Of a stretch of 34,135 nt of DNA, positions 17,142 through 26,086 are shown piece after piece (the stretch's first letter is position 1; every line of letters begins with the position of its first letter). The stretch lies in NCBI GenBank assembly GCA_015711825.1, contig JACVJD010000026.1, positions 1 through 34,135 on the forward strand, in the 5' to 3' direction. Below the pieces are notes generated by a model. The model was not told the DNA's origin. It ran no database searches and was given only the letters and a program-made list of their open reading frames with translations. Made by a program: the position numbers and the translations under genes. The DNA comes from Candidatus Solincola daggyaiensis (GTDB taxonomy: Bacteria > Actinomycetota > Geothermincolia > Geothermincolales > RBG-13-55-18).

Positions 17142-19619
17142 TCAGCGCACCACCACGTTCACCAGCTTGCCCGGGACCACCACCACCTTGGCGATCTCCT
17201 TTCCGGCGGTGTGTTCCCTGACGCGACGCGAGGCCAGGGCTATCTCCTCCATGGCCTCGGGGGAAACGTCCGCGTCAACCTCCATGCGCTCCCTTACCTT
17301 GCCGTTCACCTGCAGCACCAGGGTGATGCGTTCCGCCCTCGCGAGCTGGGGATCGTATTCCGGCCAGGGTTGAGCGTGCACGCTGTACTCCCCTCCGAGC
17401 TCCTCCCAGAGTTCCTCGGCTATGAAGGGCGCAAAGGGAGCGAGGAGCAGCACGAGGGCACGCAACGCCTCATGGCCCTCATAGGTATTGAAGGCATCGG
17501 GCGCCGCCTCCATCTCGCGATACAGTCCGTTGGTGAACTCCATGATGGCGGCGATGGCGGTATTGAAGGCAAAGCGTTCGATATCCTCGGTCACCTTCCT
17601 GATGGTGCGGTGGGTGAGGTGCGAAAGGCGCTTCAGGGCCTCGGAATCCCTGGGCACCGGCTGGGTCTTAAGGGTCAGGACATCCAGGTAGCGGTACACC
17701 AGTCGCCAGGCGCGGTTGAGAAAACGGTGGGCTCCCTCGATGCCCGAATCGCTCCATTCCTTGTCCGCCTCGGGCGGTCCCAGGAAGAGGATGAAAAGCC
17801 GCAGGGTGTCCGCCCCGTAGGTGTCTATGAACTGCTCGGGGGTGATGATATTGCCCTTGGACTTGCTCATTTTGGCCCCGCCCATCACCACCATACCCTG
17901 GCACAACAGGTTGGTGAAGGGCTCCGAGAAATCCACCAGCCCCAGATCCTTGAGCACCTTGGTGAAAAAGCGGGAGTAGAGCAGATGCATGATGGCGTGC
18001 TCGATGCCGCCGATGTACTGGTCCACGGGCAGCCAGTAGCGGACCGCCTCGTGGTCGAAGGCCGCCTCCTCGCAGTGGGGACTGGCGTAGCGGATGTAAT
18101 ACCACGAGGAGTCCACGAAGGTGTCCATGGTGTCCGTCTCCCGTTCCGCCTCCCCCTCGCAGCGGGGGCACACGGTGCGCCGGAACTCCTGTGAGCGCTC
18201 CAAGGGGGAGGGCCCTTCGAACTCGAACTCCACGTCCTCCGGCAACAGCACCGGCAGGTCCTCGTCCGGGACCGGGACCAGGCCGCATTCCGGACAGTAC
18301 ACCACGGGTATGGGGACTCCCCAGTAGCGCTGCCGGGAGATGAGCCAGTCTCGCAGGCGGTAATTGACCGTGCGTTTCCCCCAACCGCGCTCCTCCAGGA
18401 GATCGGGGACGGCATGCAGCTTCCCCTCTTCGCTGTCCATGCCGTCGAAATCCCCGCACCCCACCATGACGCCCGGATCCACATAGGCCTCGGTCATCTC
18501 CTGCGCGCGAAGCGTCCCCTCCGGCGGCTGGATGACCACGCGTATGGGAAGGCCGAACTTGCGCGCGAACTCGAAATCCCTCTGGTCATGGGCGGGCACG
18601 GCCATCACAGCTCCCGTGCCGTATTCCATGAGCACGAAGTTCGCCGTCCACACGGGCACCTCCTCGCCGTTGACCGGGTTTACGGCATAGGCGCCCGTGA
18701 ACACCCCGTCCTTCTCCGTGTCCATGGCGGTGCGCTCGATGTTCGACACCCCCCGCAGCCTCTCGCGGAAACGCGCCACCTCCTCGGCATAAGGGGTCCC
18801 GCGCGTCAGCTCGTCCACCAGGGGATGCTCCGGCGCCAGGAGGAAAAAGGTCACCCCCCAGAGGGTATCGGGACGGGTGGTGAAGATGGGGATCTCTATA
18901 TCCCTGTCCTTGATCCGGAAGACCACCTCGCAGCCCTCGGAGCGGCCTATCCAGTTGCGCTGCATGGTGAGCACGCTTTCCGGCCAGCCCTTGAGCTCCT
19001 CCATGTCCTCCAGCAGGCGCTCCGCATAGGCGGTTATGCGCAGGAACCACTGCGAGAGGGCTTTCTGTTCCACCAGGGTGTCGCAACGCTCGCAATGGCC
19101 CGCGATGACCTGCTCGTTGGCCAGGACGGTGCGGCACGACGGGCACCAGTTGGCCCATCCCTCCGCCTTATAAGCGAGGCCCTTTTCCAGAAAACGCAGG
19201 AAAAGCCACTGCGTCCAGCGGTAGTAGTCCGGTGAACAGGTGGCGAGCTCGCGTCCCCAGTCGTAGGAATAGCCGAGGCGCTGCAACCCTTCCTTGAGCA
19301 GCGCGATGTTGTCCCAGGTGTACTTGGCGGGATGCACACCGGAACGGATGGCCGCGTTCTCCGCCGGCAGCCCGAAGGCGTCCCAGCCCATGGGATGCAG
19401 CACGTTGAAGCCCTTCCGTCGCAGGTAACGCGCCAGCACGTCACCCAGGTTATAATTGGCGACGTGGCCTATGTGAGCGGGCCCCGAGGGATAAGGGAAC
19501 ATGACCAGGACATATCTTTTGGGCAGGTCGGGAAGCTCGCGGGTGCTGTAGAGGTCCGATTCCTCCCAACGGCGCCGCCACTTCTCCTCTATCGCCTTGA
19601 AGTCATACCTCTCGTTCAT
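17142..19619 (-). CDS. leuS: leucyl-tRNA synthetase
   Basis: This class I synthetase charges tRNA-Leu. The 825-residue bacterial-type protein has the HIGH motif as [16 protein letters not shown] near residues 43-58, the editing (CP1) domain with [12 protein letters not shown] and [13 protein letters not shown], a zinc-type insertion with CPECG and CPRCEG, the KMSKS loop as [11 protein letters not shown], and the C-terminal domain ending [13 protein letters not shown] and [12 protein letters not shown]. The ATG at 19619 has GGAG seven bases upstream. The gene is preceded by an AT-rich promoter about 535 bases away, and comEA follows after 702 bases. No T-box could be identified in the leader. 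Confidence 0.97.
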
Positions 19620-20286
19620 ACCTCTGCTCCGGTTCAATTCCGGCTCCCGATCCCATCCCGGCCGGCGCCGGTTTCCCGCCATAACGCCAAGCGACCGCCG
19701 TCAAAGCCTGAATGCGCCGCCTCTCACGTATCCACCCGCCTCTTCCGTCCGGCTCCAGTTGCGCTCTTTCGCGCCCGGCCACCGCTGGGAGCATCCTTCC
19801 AGGTTAACTTAATTTATGCGCCTGGTTTGCGCAAGCTCGCCTCGTTTTCGTGGTCCATCCCCTTTTTCGTTCCTTAGCGGTCTGCCGAAGAATTGCGGCA
19901 ACCGGTTTTCGCAACCGGCTACCCCCACTTCCCCGTCGCCGCGCGCCAACGCTGCGGGGATGCCGGGGAGCTGTTTCATGCATACCGCCCAGAGGACACC
20001 CAAACCAATCGCCCCGACCTCCGGAACCGCAGTGAAGCCGGGGAACCGCCTCCTGCATGCCACCGAAAAGGCCGGCGCCTTGCGCCTCCGTCATGGCAGT
20101 GCCGTCAAACGATCACGGCGCTTGTTTTCTTTTTCCGCCCTGCATGGACGCTCATGTCATATTATATATTAATTATATAACATAATCAAGTTATATTATA
20201 GATGTATGCTGCGCGGCACACGTGATCACCGCGCATGCAGCCGCTTTCGTAAAACAGATAAGGTCACCCTCAAGCACTTATATACC
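19620..20286. other. leuS upstream region, long leader, no gene seen
   Basis: The gap of 667 bases between leuS and the PP-loop ATPase gene carries no supportable gene. Short minus-strand frames of 84 and 96 codons overlap each other without family resemblance. Directly repeated CCGGTTGC units occur near 19897-19921. The stretch 20155-20205 is almost entirely A and T, in sharp contrast with the rest of the window. Confidence 0.6.
20161..20189 (-). promoter_or_regulatory. leuS: leuS promoter candidate
   Basis: On the minus strand, TTGATT (20189 to 20184) is followed after exactly 17 bases by a perfect TATAAT (20166 to 20161). The spacer and flanks are AT-rich in an otherwise GC-rich region. 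The start would be near 20154, leaving about 535 bases before leuS. Confidence 0.6.
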
Positions 20287-21453: not shown

Positions 21454-22605
21454 TCAGAGCTTTTCCCATGCCTTCCACGCCAGCAGGGCCAGCGGTACGG
21501 AGAGCACGATCATCGCCGTGGGCAGCCCGTGCCTCTGGGCCAGGAACCCCCCCGCCGCCGGGCCCAGCAGGTAACCTACGGCCCAGGCCACGTTGAAGAG
21601 CCCGAAGGCGGTGCCGTAAACGTCGCCTTCCGCCCTCCCCGCGAGCAGGTCGGCGATGAGGGGCAGGGTGGGGGTCTCGAAAAGGGCGATAGCGATACCG
21701 CAGACGGCGAAAAGCGCCGCGGCCGTCGCCAGGCTGCCGGAGAAGGTGAGCGCGGGCGCGGCCAGCGCCGTCGCCGCCAGTCCCGCGGCCATCAGCCCAC
21801 GCTTGCCCCTGCGGTCGGCGATGCTCCCCACCAGCGGACTGGCCAGGGTATAGAAGAGCACGGTGAGGGCGAAAAGAAGGCCGATGGCGGTGCTGGAAAG
21901 CCCCAGGCTCTCCTGGAGGTGCACGGGGAAGAGGGGCTCCAGCACCCCCAGGCTCACCGTGCCCATCATCACGATGACCAGGATGAAAGCGATGCCGGGG
22001 TAAGACAGCACCTCGCGCATCATCTGCCCATAGCCTGCCTCTCCTCCGCGCGGCCGCACGCGCTTGAGATCCCGGTTGAATAGGGCCATGGCGCCGCCCA
22101 GGGCGCAGATCCCCGCCACCAGGAGGAAGGGGGCTCGGTATCCCAGCCAGTCCGCCAGCGCGCCGCCCAGGGCGGGCCCGGCGATGGCTCCCGCCCCCAT
22201 GGCCGCCATCACCGTGCCCATACCCCGGCCCCTTTCCCCCGCAGGATAGACGTCCGCGATGATGGCCAGGCCCACCGACCAGTTCGCCGCCGCGGTCACC
22301 CCGTCCAGGAAGCGCGAGAGGAACAGCGCCGCGTAGGTACTCGAGAAGGCGTAAAGGACGAAGGCGCCGCCCATGGCCAGCATGCCGAAGACGAGGAAGG
22401 GCCGGCGCCCGAAACGGTCGGAGACGAGTCCGAAGGGGACGGCGGCGACGATGTTCCCCAGGGCGTAGGAGGCGAAGAGCATGCCCAGGCTCAGCTCCCC
22501 TATCCCCAGGTCCCGGGAATAGACGGGCATCACCGGGACCACCACGCCGTATCCCAAGCTGTCCACGAATATGACCAGGCAGACCAGGAAAAGAAGCCTC
22601 TTCAC
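21454..22605 (-). CDS. MFS transporter, drug-efflux-like
   Basis: The protein is a polytopic membrane protein of about 383 residues with the 12-helix layout of the major facilitator superfamily, acting as a proton-coupled exporter in the inner membrane. The motif after helix 2, GLVSDRFGRRP, is the classic loop 2-3 signature, and a second-half equivalent SIADRRGKRG follows. GAGAIAGPALGG in helix 5 is the antiporter motif C, so drug or metabolite efflux is likely; the substrate cannot be read. I chose GTG at 22605, which has AAGG six bases upstream; an ATG at 22638 would add 11 residues but has no ribosome binding site. Transcribed toward the PP-loop gene and divergent from the secreted repeat protein. 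Confidence 0.88.
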   Translation of the reverse strand: MKRLLFLVCLVIFVDSLGYGVVVPVMPVYSRDLGIGELSLGMLFASYALGNIVAAVPFGLVSDRFGRRPFLVFGMLAMGGAFVLYAFSSTYAALFLSRFLDGVTAAANWSVGLAIIADVYPAGERGRGMGTVMAAMGAGAIAGPALGGALADWLGYRAPFLLVAGICALGGAMALFNRDLKRVRPRGGEAGYGQMMREVLSYPGIAFILVIVMMGTVSLGVLEPLFPVHLQESLGLSSTAIGLLFALTVLFYTLASPLVGSIADRRGKRGLMAAGLAATALAAPALTFSGSLATAAALFAVCGIAIALFETPTLPLIADLLAGRAEGDVYGTAFGLFNVAWAVGYLLGPAAGGFLAQRHGLPTAMIVLSVPLALLAWKAWEKL

Positions 22606-23010
22606 ACCATCCCTTTCCTTCGCGTCGGCATCCCGCATGAGGAGAGATGCGCCGCGCGGATGTCGGATATGCTCTCGCCGCGTTCATCCTCGCCAAGTAA
22701 CGGCGGGACACCGCTGCCGCTATTATGCCATCTTGCACTGCTGCTTGCGCGGTGGCCCGGGCTTGGGCCCGCGGCTTCGCCTCCGATTCGGGTGATAAGA
22801 GTCGCGCCGGGCAGCCTGGCCGCAAGCAGCTCCAAGGCTCGGTCCCGAGTCCGGGCCTGACCCCTCGGACAGGGGAGGATTGACGGCGGATCGGGGTGGG
22901 TATAAGGGACATGTCTCGAACATGAAGAAGCTTGACTAAGCAGGTAAGCCGTTACCGGTCGCTCGCGCTTTCTACACCGCCGCTTCCGGAGTTCTTCCAA
23001 GGAGGTCGTC
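22606..23010. other. divergent intergenic region, MFS / secreted protein
   Basis: This 405-base gap has no supportable gene. It holds GC-rich inverted repeats around 22752-22775 and a weak plus-strand promoter candidate, TTGACG (22880-22885) and TATAAG (22901-22906) with a short 15-base spacer. A strong AAGGAGG ends five bases before the ATG at 23011. Confidence 0.5.
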
Positions 23011-25346
23011 ATGCGCAAGGTCTTCGCTGTTCTCCTGAGCTTCTTTCTCTCCCTCGCCTTCTTTCTCGCTTTTCCCGCCCCGGCGGCTCGGGCCTCGGGG
23101 TGGGAGTGGAGGCAGGAGGACTGGTCGGGGGGCCCGGGCAGCCGCTGTGGATGGACGACGCGCGCTACTCCAGCTCGTACCGCACGGACACCCGCAGCGT
23201 CCCGGGCACCATCCGGCTTTCCTATCTCTCCAACCCGTTCGCAAAAGACTCCTCCAACCCCGTGCTGGCGCCGGGAGGAGCGGGAGCCTGGGACCAGGGC
23301 CTCGCTTTCGGCTATCCTCGCACTAGGGAAGGCGGCGGCTACGAGGTGCTCTACCGCGGCGCGGACGCGGGCGGGACGGACGCGGTGGGGTACGCCTTCT
23401 CCCCGGACGGGATCGCCTGGGCCAAGCACCCCGCCAACCCGATCATCTTGACGGGAGGAGTCGATTCCTGGAACGAGAGGGCCGTGGGCGTCAACACCCT
23501 TTCCTTCGACGGCGGCATCTATAAGATGGTCGTCCTCGGAGAAGACGCCCTAGGCCATACAAGCGCGGGCGAATACTGGAGCGACAACGGGCTGGCGTGG
23601 TTCATAAACACCACGAATCCCGTTCTCACCCGCACCATGCCGCCCGCCTGGGACGATGTCGGCGTGTCCATGAACACACCCCAACTCGAGGGCGACACGC
23701 TGCGGGCTTTCTACATCGGCATCGGCCACGACGCCCCCGCCATCGGCACCGCCACCGCGGCTCCCTTCTATAACGCCATCGGAAACCTCGTCTCCTCCGT
23801 CTTCGACGCCGGCTCCCCGGCGCAGTGGTCCACGGTCACCTGGGACGAGGCGGTACCCCCGGGCTGCGCCGTTGAAGTGCGCGTGCGCACCGGCGACGTG
23901 CCGGTGCCGGACGGGAGCTGGTCGGCCTGGACGCCGGTGGCCGACGGCGCCGCCGTGCCCGGCGGCCCCACGCGCTACCTCCAGTACGAGGTGAGGCTTA
24001 CCGGCGCGGGGGCCTCTACCCCGGAGGTATCCAACCTGGCCATCGACTTCGAGGCCATCCCCACCACCTGGTACTTCGCCGAGGGCTACACCGGCGCCGG
24101 CTTCGACAAGTGGATATCCATCCAGAACCCCAACCCCGCCGACGCCAACCTCACCGTGACCTACTTCACCCCCAGCGGGGTGCCGGAGCCGCGGGCGCAT
24201 ACCGCCCCCGCCAACTCGCGCTATACCATCTACGTCAACCATGACCTGGGCCCGGACCTGGACAATTCCTTCATGGTGCAGTCGGATCAGAGGGTGATCG
24301 TGGAGCGGCCCATGTACTTCAGGTACTCGGGTTGGGGCGGGCACGACTGGCGGGGCGGCCACGACGCCATGGGATCCACCCAGCTCTCGCGGCGGTGGTA
24401 CTTCGCCGAGGGCTACACCGCCGAGGACTTCGAGGAATGGCTGACCGTCCAGAACCCCAACCCGGAGTGGGCCGTCATCGACGTGACCTACTTCGTCAAG
24501 GGCGGGGACCCCATCCGCAAGCAGCACCGCGTGCGGCCGCTCTCCCGCTACACCATCTTCGTCAACCAGGACGCCGGCCCCGGCCTGGAGGTATCGGTGG
24601 CCGTCGAGGCGGACCAGCCCGTCCTGGCCGAGAGGCCCATGTACTTCAACTACCAGGGGCACATCGACGGCGGGCACATCGTCATGGGCTCGCCTTATCT
24701 CTCCCAGGACTGGTACCTGGCGGAGGGGGCCACCTTCGACCCCTTCACCGAGTACATCACCGTCCAGAACCCCAACCCGACACCGGCCGCCGTGGCGTTG
24801 TCCTACTACCGGCCGGACGGGGCGCCGATAACCAGGAACCACAACATCCCCGCCAACAGCCGCTATACCATCAACGCCGGGTCGGATTCGGGGGTGGCCT
24901 CGGACCTCTCCGCCTACCTCCATTCCAACCTGCCCATCCTGGTGGAGAGGCCCATGTACTTCGACATGCTCTACGGGGGGCTGCCGGGGGGCCACTGCGC
25001 CAAGGGGGTCAACTCTCCCTCCAGCGACTGGTATTTCGGCGAGGGCTACACCGGCCCCGGCTTCGACGAGTGGCTCACGGTGCAAAACCCGGGAGCGACG
25101 GCCGCCGACCTCACCGTGACCTATTACGTGAAGGACGGGACGCCCATTGTGCGCAACCGCACCGTCAATCCGCAGTCACGCGACACCATCAACGTGAAGA
25201 CAGACGCAAGGGAGAACCTCGAGGTCTCCGTGCACGTGCACTCCGACCAGCCGGTGATCTGCGAGCGGCCCATGTACTTCTTCTACCAGGGGTATCACGT
25301 CTACAACTGGCCGGGAGGCCACGACTCCCAGGGCTTCGCGCCTTGA
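23011..25346 (+). CDS. secreted beta-propeller protein with four WYFAEG repeats; -1 frameshift needed
   Basis: The ATG at 23011 has a strong AAGGAGG five bases upstream and encodes a clear signal peptide (MRKVFAVLLSFFLSLAFFLA... then a cut after ARA). That frame leaves homologous sequence at 23127-23132, a GGGGGG run; a one-base backward shift there enters the long frame that ends at 25346. The joined product would be about 778 residues. After the signal comes a region with SNPVLAPGG..., YAFSPDGIAW, HPANPIIL and TTNPVLTR, which looks like a five-bladed propeller of the glycosidase 43-like kind (about residues 45-255), then a beta-rich domain (about 259-350), then four repeats of 105-109 residues beginning WYFAEG and ending VERPMYF. 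No sorting signal or membrane anchor is seen at the C terminus. Function unknown; extracellular matrix or polysaccharide binding is a guess. Confidence 0.8.
23127..23135 (+). other. frame-change site: G6 run followed by CCC
   Basis: Signal-peptide frame reads tcg-ggg-ggc here, so the heptamer G-GGG-GGC has the X-XXY-YYZ form that allows a -1 slip to GGG-GGG. The downstream frame is the one that is open for 2.2 kb. A missing base in the assembly, or slipped-strand phase variation of the six-G run, would look the same. Confidence 0.65.
24069..25343 (+). repeat. four tandem WYFAEG...ERPMYF protein repeats
   Basis: Repeat units start at 24069, 24396, 24711 and 25029, that is, 327, 315 and 318 bases apart and the last about 315 long. 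Each reads W-Y-F/L-A/G-E-G, then E-W-L-T-V-Q-N-P, a variable V-T-Y-F/Y stretch, N/S-R-Y-T-I, and closes with ERPMYF and GGH. The third unit is the most diverged (WYLAEGATFDPF). Resembles the family I know as DUF5719-type actinobacterial repeats. Confidence 0.8.
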
Positions 25347-25525: not shown

Positions 25526-26086
25526 ATGGAGGAGGAGCTTAGAACCACGGACTTCGTGGATTACCAGGCCGTCTTCTCCGATGCCCTTTTGCTGGTGGGG
25601 AGAGGTTCCAGCGTGACCGATGCCCTCGAGGCCTGTATCCGGGAGCGCTATCCACTCACCTGCAGGGATATCATCGCGGAGGCGAGCCTTATCCTGCGCC
25701 GCCTGAAGGAGGAACGCGACTGGGGCTCCCTCAGGGCGCTGCGCGAACTCGCGAGCAGGCAAGGGTTGGCGGAAGAGCTGCGCTCCAGGTGGACGCCGCA
25801 AGGAGGGGCGCATGCCGGAGCACCCGCCGAACCGACGGTGGCCGATTTCCCACGCCTCTTCGCCCTGGCGCAGCGTAAGCGGCAGGCCGGTTTTTCCCTC
25901 GAGGACTCCCTGGACATGGCGGTGCGGGAGCTCTACCCCCACACCTACCGCAAGGTGCGGGAAAGGGCGCTGGAATACATCCGCTTGGCGGCGCGCATGC
26001 GCAACGAACACGAGCTGCGGGCGCTGCGGGATCTGGCGGAGAACGCCGCCCTCTTCCACAGCCTCGAAACCCCCACCCCAGACTGA
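25526..26086 (+). CDS. small protein with internal duplication, function unknown
   Basis: The 186-residue protein is made of two similar halves. Residues about 10-80 (DYQAVFSDALLLVGRGSSVTD..., RERYPLTCRDI..., LRALRELASRQGL) align by eye with about 107-177 (DFPRLFALAQRKRQAGFSLED..., RELYPHTYRKV..., LRALRDLAENAAL). Each half is predicted helical, with a conserved R-E-x-YP turn. The halves are linked by a proline/alanine-rich stretch. I do not recognise the family. It is soluble, with no signal peptide. The start is leaderless: no ribosome binding site, and a TAGAAT box six bases upstream. It is convergent with the zinc-ribbon membrane protein gene 62 bases away. Confidence 0.75.
   Translation: MEEELRTTDFVDYQAVFSDALLLVGRGSSVTDALEACIRERYPLTCRDIIAEASLILRRLKEERDWGSLRALRELASRQGLAEELRSRWTPQGGAHAGAPAEPTVADFPRLFALAQRKRQAGFSLEDSLDMAVRELYPHTYRKVRERALEYIRLAARMRNEHELRALRDLAENAALFHSLETPTPD

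Follow-up and report, generated by a model that had tools for sequence, protein, structure and literature searches.

The gene considered here lies in the window, the whole stretch of 34,135 nucleotides that was analysed, downstream of LeuS and of a divergently transcribed MFS transporter gene (Table 1). It starts with an ATG at position 23011, with a GGAGG (23001-23005) placed five bases 5' of this codon. The open reading frame (ORF) so initiated extends from 23011 to 23451 and specifies 146 amino acids with the N terminus MRKVFAVLLSFFLSLAFFLAFPAPAARASGWEWRQEDWSGGPG; within it, the signal peptide MRKVFAVLLSFFLSLAFFLAFPAPAARA is followed by SGWEWRQEDWSGGPG, and the out-of-frame tail ends at the stop at 23451. 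The body of the protein, comprising a propeller and repeats, is held by the -1 frame, which is open from 22932 to 25346. At the junction lies the heptamer G_GGG_GGC (23127-23133), which is in frame with the signal peptide. The original prediction had placed the ribosome-binding site and signal peptide in one frame and the body in another, with the two overlapping at a run of six G residues, and both the ORFs and tblastn searches confirm this: residues 1 to about 42-63 of the orthologous proteins match in the frame of 23011 and the remainder in the frame of 23127. Because the matches of these proteins change frame at the G run, the split is more than a chance overlap of ORFs. A start within the body frame itself was rejected as an alternative; the ORF in that frame opens at a TTG (22932) and would yield a product with no signal peptide, and no body-frame start finds support in the orthologues.

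Table 1. Features of the locus, in coordinates of the window
Feature	Coordinates	Strand	Basis or remark
LeuS	17142-19682		Upstream of the gene
MFS transporter, divergent neighbour	21454..22638	-	Pfam
Shine-Dalgarno sequence AAGGAGGT	22999..23006	+	Sequence read
Signal peptide coding segment MRKVFAVLLSFFLSLAFFLAFPAPAARA	23011..23094	+	Matches orthologue N termini in alignment
Conserved segment GWEWRQxDWSGGPGQ, divided here over two frames and in a single frame in orthologues	23098..23142	+	Orthologue comparison
AGGAGG, internal Shine-Dalgarno-like hexamer, 7 bases 5' of the heptamer	23114..23119	+	Sequence read
G6 run, site of the frame break, one base shorter than in every orthologue	23127..23132	+	DNA comparison
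Remnant N-terminal GH130/GH43-like beta-propeller, three blade-like units left	23130..23800	+	Orthologue model, fold match
Body frame (-1 relative to the signal peptide), 737 codons plus TGA (25344-25346)	23133..25346	+	ORF; orthologue tblastn
Junction of the in-frame loss of about 180 aa	23391..23410	+	Protein alignments; DNA comparison
WYFAEGYTGxGFDEWLTVQNPNP repeats, DUF5719 match in the last part	24060..25343	+	Pfam PF18986
Downstream gene MEEELRTTDFVDYQ...	25526..26086	+	Also directly 3' of the G002 orthologue

The gene is uninterrupted at this site in related genomes

Six orthologues were compared, from two congeners (G001 and G002), three members of the same family (G007, G012 and G014) and one of the same order (G015). 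The window gene is the orthologue of these genes, an assignment backed by their common neighbourhood: LeuS- and MFS-like genes also adjoin the orthologue on the G001 and G012 contigs, and the downstream gene recurs in G002. In all six, the signal peptide runs without interruption into the motif DWSGGPGQ, with one extra base at the site where the window gene is broken. The DNA at this point reads GACTGGTCGGGAGGGCCCGGGCAA in G001, GACTGGTCGGGGGGACCCGGCCAG in G002 and GACTGGTCGGGTGGGCCTGGGCAG in G007, the window being one base shorter, and the run itself is interrupted in the relatives (GGGAGGG, GGGGGGA and GGGTGGG). Hence, the original claim that the secreted protein needs a -1 shift holds for this one sequence and fails for the six orthologues, which encode the same segment in a single frame.

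A search of this genome for a second copy or paralogue found no intact DWSGGPGQ motif, the sole other match being a distant member at G000:C17. Likewise, when a copy from the same species was sought among the genome contigs, matches came only from the contigs of G001, G007 and G012. Two contigs of the relatives, G001:C58 and G012:C57, end within the C-terminal repeats of this very gene (at TFDPFTE and GSGFDE, respectively), which suggests that these repeats break assemblies.

Domain architecture and a second lesion in the propeller

The family to which the gene belongs is a conserved secreted protein with a signal peptide, a GH130/GH43-like beta-propeller and DUF5719-like C-terminal repeats. 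The PF18986 match falls on residues 657-746 of the body-frame translation (E = 8e-14, above the gathering score). The WYFAEGYTG...WLTVQNPNP repeats also show, via an orthologue, a weak match to PDB 1nc7 (TM1070, of unknown function; E = 0.004). Alignments reveal a second lesion that the original prediction had missed: relative to every orthologue with an intact propeller, the window copy lacks about 180 amino acids, in frame, corresponding to about three of the six blade units, so that a complete propeller is present in the orthologues and absent here. At the junction, a blade-1-like “...TDAVGY” runs directly into a blade-4-like “AFSPDGIAWAKHPANPI”, which carries the AFSPDG motif. For the N-terminal domain of an intact orthologue, the model is a beta-propeller of six blade-like sheets (mean pLDDT, 75), and the propeller segment left in the window models poorly (mean pLDDT, 49), a contrast that is supportive only, the alignments behind both models being shallow. 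The two joined blade motifs have just 8-14 consecutive identical bases in common, as measured in the orthologues. With so little identity between them, a simple collapse of the blades during assembly becomes less likely.

Constraint on the body and the state of the gene in the genus

The body frame contains no stop codons. Over 536 shared codons, its pN/pS is 0.39 against G001, 0.54 against G007 and 0.44 against G014, as compared with 0.42-0.53 for pairs of intact copies, and residue changes unique to one lineage number 19 in the window and 25, 44 and 35 in intact copies. The body was thus normally constrained until very recently. Relaxed selection on the body frame was not seen, and such decay is not required of a recent pseudogene. 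Since the body is undecayed, the break must have occurred very recently, be carried by few members of the population or be an error.

The G002 orthologue (L023; G002:C3, about 168.4-169.8 kb, minus strand) is also broken. Its signal-peptide frame is intact and three breaks lie further on; compared with the relatives, G runs have each lost one base at GGCACGGGGGGTGGGAC and at GACTCGGGGTGAGC, and the propeller is fused to the late repeats by a large internal deletion that does not keep the frame. The gene is therefore broken in two of the three species of the genus, at different places, and from these sequences it appears to have been broken independently in each.

The wider assembly gives a background against which to set the break. 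A frame-aware codon-usage scan covering 123,494 codons of this genome flagged 6 candidate shifts, compared with 7 in 108,589 codons sampled from G002 and 7 in 107,419 from G001; these figures undercount breaks near gene starts, the scan being blind to the break in the window because the signal-peptide segment is short. Among 115 orthologue queries (61 from G001 and 54 from G002), none gave a frameshift-like join against the sample from this genome. Pervasive indel noise was thus tested for and not found; the assembly is not riddled with indels. A loose scan of 434 kb for signal peptides cut off from their bodies yielded 13 candidates, among which only the window case was convincing by eye; a stricter version missed even that case.

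Sequence context of the G run

In form, the heptamer is a -1 slippery site, an in-frame X_XXY_YYZ, as originally noted. As evidence for slippage by the ribosome it is uninformative, since such heptamers are common: the 363 called genes sampled contain 44 in-frame copies of G_GGG_GGC and, counting every type, 605 in-frame XXXYYYZ heptamers. The CCCGGG stretch that follows, to which the original prediction had drawn attention, yields RNA not clearly more stable than shuffled sequences: four stretches 3' of the run fold about like shuffles (z = +2.0 to -1.2) under a model that excludes pseudoknots, revealing no stimulatory downstream structure. The internal AGGAGG is the single feature that speaks for a programmed shift, since it could mimic the stimulatory Shine-Dalgarno element of dnaX. 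Only 1.3% of codon positions have an AGGAGG 5-18 bases upstream, and the 41 other in-frame G_GGG_GGC heptamers all lack one. A single GAG codon, at a residue that varies, creates the hexamer here, and G001, G002 and G012 do not have it; it lends a programmed shift weak support because the shift itself is not conserved. No Rfam family matches the locus, and a search of one library of papers for GGGGGGC as a frameshift site found no report. A slip from GGC to GGG would leave the usual tRNA-Gly(GCC) mispaired at the third base.

No MutL, MutS1 or NucS scored above the family cutoffs in the three genomes of the genus (G000, G001 and G002). The same double absence, of MutS1/MutL and of NucS, is reported for the Coriobacteriia (PMC5290159). 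In mycobacteria, which are without MutS/MutL, frameshift rates are high in runs of 7-9 (PMC10159617), and glpK of Mycobacterium tuberculosis phase-varies via a 7-base poly-G tract (PMC11898584). Given these parallels and the lack of detectable MutS1, MutL and NucS, slippage at G runs would be unsurprising in this lineage. Two adjacent MutS-like ATPase ORFs are present at G000:C15:19133-21063, and NucS passes its cutoff, weakly, in only 2 of 20 genomes of the class.

Origin of the frame break

Four readings were offered by the original prediction, and we rank recent damage above assembly error, followed by phase variation and then programmed frameshifting. The last of these, a -1 ribosomal shift at G_GGG_GGC that would set the dose of the secreted protein, is very unlikely. 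A -1 slip at the heptamer gives exactly the conserved residues SGGPGQ, but the same residues would be regained on slipping back from any one-base deletion in the run. No orthologue needs the shift, and the frame change is thus not conserved; the commonplace heptamer, the unremarkable RNA downstream, the derivation of AGGAGG from a variable codon and the mispairing expected of tRNA-Gly(GCC) all count against it as well. Slipped-strand phase variation, in which the run would flip in length, switching export on and off, and the assembly would have caught the off state, has a feasible mechanism where, as in this genus, MutS1/MutL are not detected, and has the precedent of glpK. The run sits just 3' of the signal peptide, so placed that a change of frame turns the entire protein on or off, and the body is well conserved. 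We nevertheless hold it to be improbable: at six bases, interrupted in relatives and not conserved between species, the run is neither a long simple repeat nor a kept contingency tract, G6-G8 runs are frequent (245 in the 363 genes sampled from this genome), and the loss of blades could not be reversed by slippage. More doubtful still is a broader version, in which an Actinomycetota lineage lacking MutS1, MutL and NucS would combine one-base slippage in short G runs with the loss of blades between propeller repeats, so as to turn a surface-exposed sugar-binding protein on and off or to vary it. On that view, the two congeners' broken copies would not be dead genes; each would record one moment in a variation still under way.

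An assembly or consensus error, the organism's gene being uninterrupted and the draft having lost one base and perhaps collapsed the propeller too, is a more credible alternative, even if on balance unlikely. It would account for a body as conserved as in intact genes, and it fits a fragmented draft of 190 contigs and a gene that the contig ends in G001 and G012 mark as hard to assemble. Against this, frameshifts are rare elsewhere in the assembly despite common G6/G7 runs in genes, the G run lies outside the repeats, and the 8-14 identical bases at the joined blades of the orthologues fall short of what a typical k-mer join needs. Of the four readings, a recent disabling mutation is the best fit because the same gene carries a second, larger lesion and the congener's copy is also broken. 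Thus, we propose that this is probably a recently damaged gene, a slippage frameshift having struck a gene that was already losing its propeller. Relative to intact orthologues it carries two disabling lesions, the one-base frame break and the in-frame loss of about 180 amino acids; we infer that these exist in living cells and that the gene is nonfunctional. Replication slippage is likely to have removed one base from the G run just 3' of the signal peptide, breaking the frame recently, and a deletion between blade motifs would have taken out about three of the six blade units while keeping the frame. The strong start would then direct synthesis of a 146-amino-acid exported fragment with an out-of-frame tail, and the body would not be made, or would be made only in traces through accidental slippage. 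Two points speak against the damaged-gene reading: a propeller reduced in blades might still have a role, and the body shows no decay, with no stops, a pN/pS relative to G001 close to that of intact pairs, and fewer lineage-unique residue changes than the intact copies.

The observation underlying the original prediction is real, then, and its cause is probably ordinary. As it stands, a damaged gene in a draft genome matters little in itself. It does correct a tempting inference, namely, that programmed frameshifting can be read from a heptamer that looks slippery and lies where signal peptide and body meet. If both run lengths were to occur within the species, the gene would carry more weight, as the source of a phase-variable surface protein in a lineage seemingly without known mismatch repair.

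Comparison with known systems

Among the best fold matches of the N-terminal beta-propeller of an intact orthologue are GH130 structures (9fj8 and 7fip) and glycoside hydrolase BT_0996 (5mui), the closest solved structures being the 1,2-beta-oligomannan phosphorylase 9fj8 and its relatives. Identity to these matches is just 16-18% and the TM-score about 0.42 by query length. The orthologue also matches 9fj8 (E = 1.4e-5) and 7fip in sequence. Unlike the GH130 beta-1,2-mannobiose and 1,2-beta-oligomannan phosphorylases, the window copy retains only about half of the blade units. Its C-terminal repeats exceed the gathering score of DUF5719 (PF18986) and cover the profile only in part (40-128 of 319).

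With the -1 sites of the dnaX type and those of phage tail chaperones, the window shares a zero-frame X_XXY_YYZ heptamer and a Shine-Dalgarno-like hexamer 7 bases 5' of it; it differs from them in having neither conservation nor a downstream structure nor any need for the shift in orthologues. The glpK gene of M. tuberculosis differs in that many strains and reversion are documented there, as against one draft genome here; moreover, relatives of the window do not keep the run, and its gene carries a second lesion. The two cases are alike in that a one-base change in a short poly-G run breaks the frame; M. tuberculosis is of the same phylum and is without MutS/MutL.
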